From NCBI GenBank assembly GCA_000310025.1, contig FN649740.1, forward strand, positions 3,711,774 to 3,775,773: 64,000 bases of DNA, read 5' to 3'. Below, piece after piece: positions 41,314 through 55,442 of this stretch (position 1 is the first letter of the stretch; every line of letters starts with the position of its first letter). This DNA comes from Ectocarpus siliculosus. Its lineage: Eukaryota; Sar; Phaeophyceae; Ectocarpales; Ectocarpaceae. A program made the translations under genes and the position numbers. A model generated the notes under the pieces. The model searched no databases. It had not been told where the DNA came from and was given only the letters and a program-made list of their open reading frames with translations.

Positions 41314-44300
41314 ATGGCTCCAGGGGAGGGCAGCTCGGGTTGCCTCGGCAGTACGCCTCTCCTCGACGGCTACCACGTGCCTGCCGAGTGGGAAACCCAC
41401 GAAAGGTGAGAGGAATAGATTCACGCTTACAGCAGAACGGGTAAATACTCGATCGCCATCATTCCAACCAGTAGCACCTTTGATTTGCATCCAGAGGTGA
41501 AGAATGAAGGCCTTTGACGGCAGCGACAGGATCGTTTTTTTCTCAGGACCGGACCCCCAAGGGTCTGTGCGAAAAAAATTCACACCCTGTACAAACAAAA
41601 AGTTTATACATATGGGGGTGTTTGATTCAATTAATTGTTTTTGGTTTGGGGAGTACATACATATAATTTATATATATGGGGGTATTTGATTTAATTAATT
41701 GTTTTGGGGTTTGGGGAGTACATATGAACAAATACAAATGGTTTTTGCGCGCATGGTATTTGCGCGCGGCCGCAAATACCCCTTGTTTGTCTGGAAATAA
41801 ATATTTGCGCACGATCTTGACCAAGTAGTTGTCTAGATATAAATATTTGCACACGATTCTGAACGAGTAGTTGTCTAAGGGGTATTATTAACGACGAAAA
41901 AAACACTGAATATTCCACGGAAGCGTGTTTTCTTGAACATATATGGAGGCGTTTTTCCCCGAAAACGTGAAAAGAAGGAGCCGGGATTTTTTGGGGCTTG
42001 CTACTTTCACGAATCCGTGTCTTTGACAGAAGCATCGGACAAGCGCACCGCGGGCGCTGTAACATCACGGAGAACGCTAGAAAGACCTGCCAGACTCACG
42101 TCCAGGGCTGTTGTGGAGATGGACAAGCGGCAGAAGCGGCGTTCAGTCCGTTCTTGGCCCAAAACTAGGCATTGCGTGGTGCTCTCGTCTTCAACTGCTG
42201 CTGTTGGTGCTGGGGGATTTTTTTCAATCACACATACTAAACACGGAAACAGTAGATCGAGTACAGCAGCAGCACCAAGACCTCCAACGCGCTGATTCCT
42301 TCGGTTCGGCTGTCTATATGATACCATCTCCCGGCGCCGTGCTGCTTCGTGGGTATTGGGTGCTTGGGTGTATCTCAATAAAGTGTGTGAGACGTGTGCC
42401 ACCTCACCAAAATGCCGTTGGAAAAAATGCGGCGAGATGATCTGTTTTTTGTCGGACGCATCAACATCAATCCACGGCACCACGCAGCAGTAGAGCAACA
42501 GGGCCTCCGACACGCTTATTCTTTCGGATTGGCCATCTATATGATGCTGGCCGTCAGCGCGGCTGCCGCCCTATGATTGTTGAGCTCGTCTACCTTTGGG
42601 CAGGTGGTGGTCAAAGATGGGAGTCGCAACCGTGAAAAATGAGCTGGCAAACTGAAGAAATCGCAAGCAACACCCAGGTGGCGACACTCTGCCCTGCGCC
42701 TGTTGTTGCTGAAAACTGAAAACAGCAGGCCAGGTGGACGCGATCTTTCTAAGTGTGTTGTCCTCTGTGTCGGGTGCTGCTCATTGCGCTTTCACCGCTG
42801 CTCTATTGTGAGCTATACCATGTCAACCTGTTGTGTGTCGAGCAAAACGTGTATTCAGGGAAGGAAACGTACTTTTCGCGATGACATCACGATTAGAACA
42901 AGCGAAAAATAGTCGGATGTTCTTTTCACCGTTCCGTGAAGAAATGCGTTTTTTTTGCGTTGCGTCAACAATACCCCTAAGAGACGATTATTTGCACACG
43001 ATTCTGAACAAGCATTTGTCTGGAGACAAATATTTGCACACGATTCTGAACGAGTATTTGTCCGGAAACAAATAGTTGCACACATTCTGCCTAGAGTATT
43101 TGGCTGGGAACAAGTGGAAGAACAATTAGATATGAGGCCTCATCCAGAGGGTGTTTGGCTGGAAACAAAACAAATACAAGAATAATTACATATGAGGCAT
43201 CTAAAGTAATAGGGATGCATTCTAAATGCCTGCTCCTCATGTGCATAGCGCCTCTTCTTACTTCTCCTCCGATATATGCGTCATGCGCATACGTAGCGGA
43301 GCACGGGCGCCGAAAGTCCCAGTCTAGAGAGAGAGAGGTGTTTGCGTGTGGTGATTGGACATACATACATACGGTACAGCATTGTTCGGGTGACGTACGG
43401 GATAGATACATAGGTGGTTCTGGCGCTGGCGCAAATAATGGATAGTTCTCCGCAGCAACCTGACGGTACGGGTTGGGCAAATTGCTCCGGTGCGCTTTTT
43501 TTTTGTCCAGGAGTAGGTAGGGGAGATTGCTCTTGTCGCGTTTATTTACCTTTTGCCTAAAGTGGGAGATCGAGAGTTACTACCTGTTTTTTCTGTTTAG
43601 ACATATGAAGGGGGGCATCACGTGGTTGTTTCCGTCAATCTAGTAAATTTCTAGGAAAATACCATATGGTTTCAGTTTATTTATCGATTTGCACTGAGTC
43701 TCTATCGAGCTCACATGCTACACGTGCTCTTTTGAATTCTGAACTCATCCAGCCACCCAGGTTTCATACTTTTGACCAAGTATTTGTTTGCAAATACAAC
43801 GGTAGTTTGCACACGATTTTGACCCTGTATTTGTCTAGAAGCAAATATTTGCGCACGATCTTGACCCAGTATTGTCTGGAGACAAATATTTGCGCACGAT
43901 TCAGACCCAGTATTTGTCTAGAGACAAATAGTTGCACACGATTCTGATCGAGTATTTGTCTAAGAGACAAATATTTGCACACGATTCTGAACAAGTATTT
44001 GTCAAACCAAACAAATGGCAAATGGAGTTTTTTGTACAGGGTGTGCAAAATTTCAAGGCACATATGCCTACTAATCGAAAATCGGGGTCATTTGGGGGTG
44101 GGTGGGTCATTTGGGGGGGGGGGGGGGGGACATATACCATGCATCCCCGGGTTTTCCCCCAAGGCGTCCGCGCCTTCGGGGTCTTTTGGGGGGGGGGGGG
44201 AAAGTNNNNNNNNNNNNNNNNNNNNNNNNNNNNNNNNNNNNNNNNNNNNNNNNNNNNNNNNNNNNNNNNNNNNNNNNNNNNNNNNNNNNNNNNNNNNNNN

Positions 44301-55442: not shown

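Follow-up and report, generated by a model that had tools for sequence, protein, structure and literature searches.

A predicted eight-exon agmatine deiminase gene of Ectocarpus siliculosus with a repeat-laden first intron of about 8.2 kb

The window analysed here is a stretch of 64,000 nucleotides of Ectocarpus siliculosus DNA (contig FN649740.1, positions 3,711,774 to 3,775,773). On its forward strand, at 41314–55442, lies the coding sequence of a putative agmatine deiminase consisting of eight exons, which together comprise 1164 nt and encode 387 amino acids followed by a stop codon in a frame that is open throughout. Exon 1 (41314–41405, 92 nt) codes for 30 residues and two bases of codon 31 and ends at a GT donor in phase 2. 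Exon 2 (49655–50081) begins inside a conserved motif (R/TWMLWP), exon 4 (50559–50709) carries His235 and Asp237, and exon 8 (55329–55442, stop codon TAG included) carries Cys375. The joined reading frame is continued by exons 3 (50238–50308), 5 (51251–51358), 6 (53107–53200), and 7 (53764–53870). The translation of the joined exons showed GT–AG ends in all seven introns and a reading frame conserved across every junction; the introns measure, in order, 8249, 156, 250, 541, 1748, 563, and 1458 bp. A preliminary description of this DNA had proposed a full 387-aa enzyme encoded by eight exons, the first two joining in phase within the N-terminal motif of the family. All of its coordinates checked, His235 and Cys375 were found where it had placed them, and the in-phase junction was confirmed on the joined exons. 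The eight-exon model, in which intron 1 of about 8.2 kb would be spliced out, is a prediction from the genomic sequence.

The encoded protein matched the Pfam model PF04371 (3e-121) over profile positions 2–321 of 321. This model is named for peptidyl-arginine deiminase. Both agmatine deiminase models were passed, TIGR03380 (AguA) with 476 bits versus a curated cut-off of 381.8 and NF010070 with 488.2 bits versus a cut-off of 483, and these family scores suggest specificity for agmatine. Among the 11 matches to solved proteins, 3h7c was the best, followed by 1vkp and 6nib; 2jer was also matched. We take the first three to be plant enzymes (3h7c being the agmatine iminohydrolase, AIH, of Arabidopsis and 6nib that of Medicago) and 2jer to be the enzyme of Enterococcus.

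For the comparison with relatives, the best 80 of 582 confirmed bacterial loci and 4 of the 11 solved proteins were used, no other alga being among them. One of the 80 loci had no usable open reading frame (ORF), and two more (L040 and L066) were excluded from the final tree and alignment, which left 82 aligned rows: the algal protein, four solved relatives, and 77 bacterial loci. In all 82 rows, His235, Asp237, and Cys375 are conserved without exception; their counterparts in chain 2jer are His218, Asp220, and Cys357. Cys357 is presumably the nucleophile of that enzyme, and we take the His, Asp, and Cys to be the catalytic residues of the family. With the curated AguA cut-offs passed and these residues kept, the identification as an agmatine deiminase made in the preliminary description was upheld. 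The profile search of the entire assembly (189,456,909 bases; the window lies in G000:C15) revealed a single PF04371 locus, as all five candidates fell in this gene and no further locus was found. Exon 2 and four later pieces were matched in this genome-wide search; exon 1 was not listed as a match of its own, which may be expected from its shortness.

The ATG at 41314 is the first one downstream of an in-frame stop, with no other ATG between. The N-terminal motif M-P-x-E-x(7)-W-M-x-W-P is present across the junction of exons 1 and 2. At one of its positions the algal protein has Val where the other 81 of the 82 aligned rows have Met, and the Pro and Glu of its P-x-E part are invariant in 82 of 82 rows. 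Homology at the N-terminus reaches beyond the motif, residues 14–384 being aligned with 3h7c and residues 10–382 with 2jer, and of the 79 relatives that had a usable ORF, 70 showed a similar N-terminal pattern. A profile of the 11 residues preceding the junction, made from 52 distinct sequences of these 79 relatives, was scored on both strands of the window at 88,331 positions free of stops. The exon-1 motif reached 21.1 bits versus 1.1 for the next best position. In the random control, which consisted of 200 sequences of 64,000 bases having the dinucleotide frequencies of the window and read on one strand each, the highest score was 12.8, and the best scores averaged −1.5 (SD 3.7). The exon-1 motif is thus the only good match to the N-terminal motif of the family in the window, far beyond chance. 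AG and a GT donor come after it, and the phase of this donor is the one required by exon 2.

Another in-frame ATG is found at 49488–49490 on the same strand, upstream of exon 2, in a frame that is open back to a stop at 49452. The gene could start there with exon 2 extended in the 5' direction, the match at 41314 being a chance occurrence or a relic. However, this start lowers the TIGR03380 score from 476.0 to 451.1 (−24.9 bits), still above the cut-off, and that of NF010070 from 488.2 to 458.7 (−29.5 bits), which falls below it. The extension also crosses a pyrimidine-rich acceptor tract, and the exon-1 motif is unique in the window and terminates in a correctly phased donor, which makes a sole start at 49488 very improbable. 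Long first introns can hold alternative promoters, and this one could host a promoter near exon 2, in which case both starts would be used and the same ATG and open frame would yield a second enzyme devoid of the conserved N-terminus. As such a shorter form would lack the P-x-E motif with its invariant Pro and Glu, we give little credence to this arrangement either. The start at the distal exon 1 remains the one that we prefer.

Intron 1 occupies 41406–49654, including an assembly gap at 44206–44305 of exactly 100 N with G-rich sequence on both flanks. As the gap is probably a placeholder, 8249 bp is the nominal length of the intron, in accordance with the 8.25-kb gapped intron reported previously. 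The remaining introns of the gene are 156–1748 bp long, and the matched pieces of a gene for AguB on C19 are separated by 141–577 bp. The consulted parts of two publications give a mean intron length of 740 bp for Ectocarpus, with a genome of 197 Mb (PMC6418280), and a median of 524 bp for its autosomal introns (PMC12477816). Compared with these far shorter values, intron 1 is a long one for a genome of this type. Four interspersed stretches (41878–42978, 44306–46322, 46332–47400, and 47787–48553) account for 4954 of its 8249 bp (60%), and together with the tandem repeats and the gap for 5623 bp. The idea that this intron had absorbed many repeats was therefore correct: about 60% of it corresponds to interspersed repeats that have other copies in the genome.

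The most upstream of the stretches (41878–42978, 1101 bp) begins with GGGGTATT and ends with AATACCCC, which are its terminal inverted repeats (TIRs), and has TAA on both sides, where it is inserted in a 42-bp minisatellite. One other scored copy (C2:8099499–8100599) spans the same 1101 bp at 96% identity, and its flanks read differently from those in the window. No transposase was seen in this element. PIF/Harbinger elements are characterized by a 3-bp target duplication, TIRs, and a transposase of their own. A second array of the unit that hosts the TIR element lies at 43806–44003 (+ strand, 4.7 copies) and contains an uninterrupted GTCTAAGAGAC unit near 43958. A minisatellite with a 66-bp unit is found at 46194–46396 (+ strand, 3 copies), so that both arrays bear out the minisatellites announced for this intron.

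Downstream of the gap, the minus strand carries a 5'-truncated copy of a LINE (44306–45711), which is also present at 92–97% identity in at least 38 other places; this number is a lower bound, as 40 of 5080 candidates were scored. The window copy matched no Pfam family, and a search of the PDB with its 277-aa piece gave nothing at E values of up to 1. By eye, it ends at the FADD region, as expected of a 5'-truncated LINE. In a longer genomic copy (L109), a reverse transcriptase domain (RVT_1, 4.6e-27) lies upstream of the truncation point, which substantiates the LINE named in the preliminary description. The adjacent element of about 0.6 kb (45712–46322, minus strand) has at least eight further pieces in the genome at 89–95% identity, and its end shares 68 bp at 85% identity with the end of the LINE in L109. 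By description alone, it resembles an Ectocarpus element of about 600 bp with the 3' end of an RTE-X LINE (PMC12477816).

A larger interspersed repeat at 46332–47400 encloses a SINE-like element of 243 bp with an A-rich tail (46587–46829, + strand). Among the matches listed for the larger repeat, C16:6148705–6149733 is 93% identical to 46386–47400 and C2:4826651–4826905 is 96% identical to 46332–46587. The scoring of 40 of 1278 candidates gave at least 27 stand-alone copies of the SINE-like element at 93–98% identity. The surrounding repeat continues without it at six or more places, two of which were read, and does hold it at two further places (C16 and C4). These stand-alone copies and uninterrupted sites agree with the SINE-like repeat noticed earlier. 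The last interspersed repeat (47787–48553) appears to be older, being 71–76% identical to other copies in at least four places.

Judging from this arrangement, intron 1 would have grown by the insertion of the TIR element into a minisatellite and by the arrival of LINE-type elements and of the SINE-like element, and none of these insertions touches a splice site. A gene nested in the intron was also considered and rejected: none of the five ORFs tested (42007–42570, 44980–45813, 46191–46757, 48591–49115, and 48926–49411) had a Pfam family at 0.001. Across the whole window, no match to an Rfam family attained the gathering score. According to PMC12477816, 81% of Ectocarpus genes have received one or more transposable element insertions, evolutionarily old genes are enriched in LINEs, and LINEs, LINE-dependent elements, and DNA elements are ubiquitous in introns, much like the elements found here. 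As repeat-laden introns and the reaction of this enzyme have already been reported for Ectocarpus, the intron is an ordinary finding, the surprise of which was overrated. It illustrates well how mobile DNA can enlarge an intron, in a manner already known.

The algal protein resembles the plant AIH proteins 3h7c and 6nib in its full-length alignment, catalytic residues, and an identity of 47–48%, but it was not placed as their sister in the tree; a clade of the alga and plants received no support but was not rejected either (p-AU of 0.478). With the bacterial AguA proteins (of Pseudomonas, Chloroflexota, and others) it shares up to 54–55% identity and the same N-terminal motif; unlike the algal gene with its seven introns, the bacterial frame is continuous. 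The trees of the 80 best bacterial loci and four solved relatives left the algal protein unplaced and favoured neither a plant-type nor a bacterial origin. Its long end branch (1.57) indicates that it is divergent. Among viruses, AIH is described in the consulted part of PMC9992855 as being confined to chloroviruses. When viral contigs were scanned with the algal protein, neither of the two pattern matches was confirmed as a relative, and viral kinship was rejected. The long branch and the heavy repeat load of intron 1 might also be expected of a decaying pseudogene overrun by repeats, but with eight open exons, seven intact GT–AG pairs, the catalytic residues kept, and no frame break in 1164 nt, as the preliminary description had also judged, this is extremely improbable. 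We therefore consider it highly probable that the locus holds an intact nuclear AguA/AIH gene of eight exons with a distal start in exon 1 and an intron of about 8.2 kb grown by insertions, the product of which would lead to putrescine via AguB.

AguA converts agmatine to N-carbamoylputrescine, which is turned into putrescine by AguB. The pieces of the AguB gene on C19 cover model positions 34–278 of 279, none of them reaching the cut-off alone. In the proposed route, the transcript would start at or upstream of 41314 and lose the intron of about 8.2 kb by splicing. Cys375 of the enzyme, which is probably cytosolic as it has no targeting extension, would attack agmatine, with the release of ammonia and the formation of N-carbamoylputrescine, and the AguB-type amidase would then produce putrescine. 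The metabolic network of Ectocarpus, as presented in the consulted part of PMC5302834, has agmatine deiminase and agmatinase reactions, the former being the same activity as assigned here, compared at the level of activity only. The same part reports that neither Ectocarpus, other sequenced strains included, nor Saccharina japonica has an arginine decarboxylase, and proposes that external agmatine is supplied by bacteria. For seaweeds in general, PMC4316711 states that there is no molecular information on gene numbers for polyamine enzymes. The present gene gives the agmatine route a foothold in a brown alga. It also lends support to a model with a first exon of 31 residues that carries part of a conserved motif and lies 8 kb off behind mobile DNA and a gap.

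The polyamine picture, i.e., the source of agmatine and the state of ornithine decarboxylase (ODC), is more interesting than the intron and deserves a look of its own. The exon-by-exon search of the genome gave no match to PF01862 (arginine decarboxylase), one exon matched PF01276 with 27.1 bits versus a cut-off of 27, and TIGR01273 matched only a divergent gene on C2 (47.7 bits versus 624.1). Since the genome was read exon by exon, a gene split into short exons could have escaped this search. Within this scope, a canonical arginine decarboxylase was not detected, which agrees with PMC5302834 for the canonical families. Two divergent genes were seen. On C17, a split gene of the Orn/Lys/Arg decarboxylase (OKR_DC_1) type lies on the minus strand (L094, G000:C17:2756500-2765500); its joined exons are distant to solved Orn/Lys/Arg decarboxylases (2x3l being the best, 5.1e-20) and passed the cut-off of none of the seven NCBIfam models listed. 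By eye, its N-terminus might target the plastid. On C2, a single frame encodes a decarboxylase of 598 aa (L087, G000:C2:22689-26444, 952–2748, minus strand), which matches both PF02784 and PF00278, has diaminopimelate decarboxylase as its nearest relative, and is below the cut-off of all seven NCBIfam models listed (best lysA, 166.1 versus 297.9 bits). Either candidate could be the missing arginine decarboxylase.

Three of four candidates matched PF02784 and four of five matched PF00278, pointing to genes on C2, C22, C23, and C99; in the exon-by-exon genome search, no canonical ODC with both halves in one gene was found among these matches. On C99, two very similar diaminopimelate-decarboxylase-like pieces (L097 and L098, at about 170 and 142 kb of G000:C99) lie 28 kb apart, which suggests a recent duplication; they were compared and named by eye. 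The ODC relatives are those on C23 (L091, G000:C23:1731500-1740700) and C22 (L100/L095, G000:C22, about 22189–24117), and we name their residues by what we take to be the ODC numbering. In the C23 gene, AVKCN, FHCGSG, LLDIGGGFPG, IAEPGRYFVE, and MGAYT align with solved ODCs, and GPSGLPTD stands where these have GPTCDGLD. The gene thus keeps the pyridoxal-binding half (Lys69, His197, GGG, and EPGR), and Cys360 and Asp361 are lost. The C22 gene keeps WGPTCDGLD and YYVDDGCYGS and, by eye, has SIDVGSA, GLGEGG, and ADATE at the expected pyridoxal-binding motifs; no Lys69 region was seen in the 9.9 kb upstream of it. Asp332 is kept by neither gene.

Both genes appear degenerate, and their losses complement each other. 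Cys360 and Asp361 of ODC exert their action across the interface between the subunits of the dimer. As the losses are complementary across this interface, a C22/C23 heterodimer is suggested, which could hold one composite active site. Two pseudoenzymes, a missing piece of the assembly, a missed gene of short exons, or misread exons would explain the pattern too. Trypanosome AdoMetDC/prozyme and deoxyhypusine synthase offer precedents; the literature search, which covered titles and the beginnings of abstracts, did not find a split ODC, and this is no proof of its absence from print. It is a rather doubtful, if conceivable, extension of these observations that the agmatine arm is the main or essential source of putrescine, fed by bacterial agmatine or by an unrecognised decarboxylase encoded on C17, with ODC split into two half-dead paralogues.

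Several further features were observed outside the subjects above. A second assembly gap (399 N) lies at 12332–12730 of the window. In intron 5 of the gene, at 52460–52640, a repeated motif of the type GGAGAGATCGCACCGGGGTGC is seen by eye in both orientations. The open frames at 4970–6217 (+ strand) and 9490–9969 (minus strand) have KRNHKPTTNGARGGQETDETAREESKREETDRVA in common and are probably another repeat; the former had no Pfam match. The EsV-1-7 motif, which is typical of brown algae, points to such an alga as the source of the DNA: in the genome all 150 scored candidates (of 880) were over its cut-off, as compared with 0 of 14 controls.
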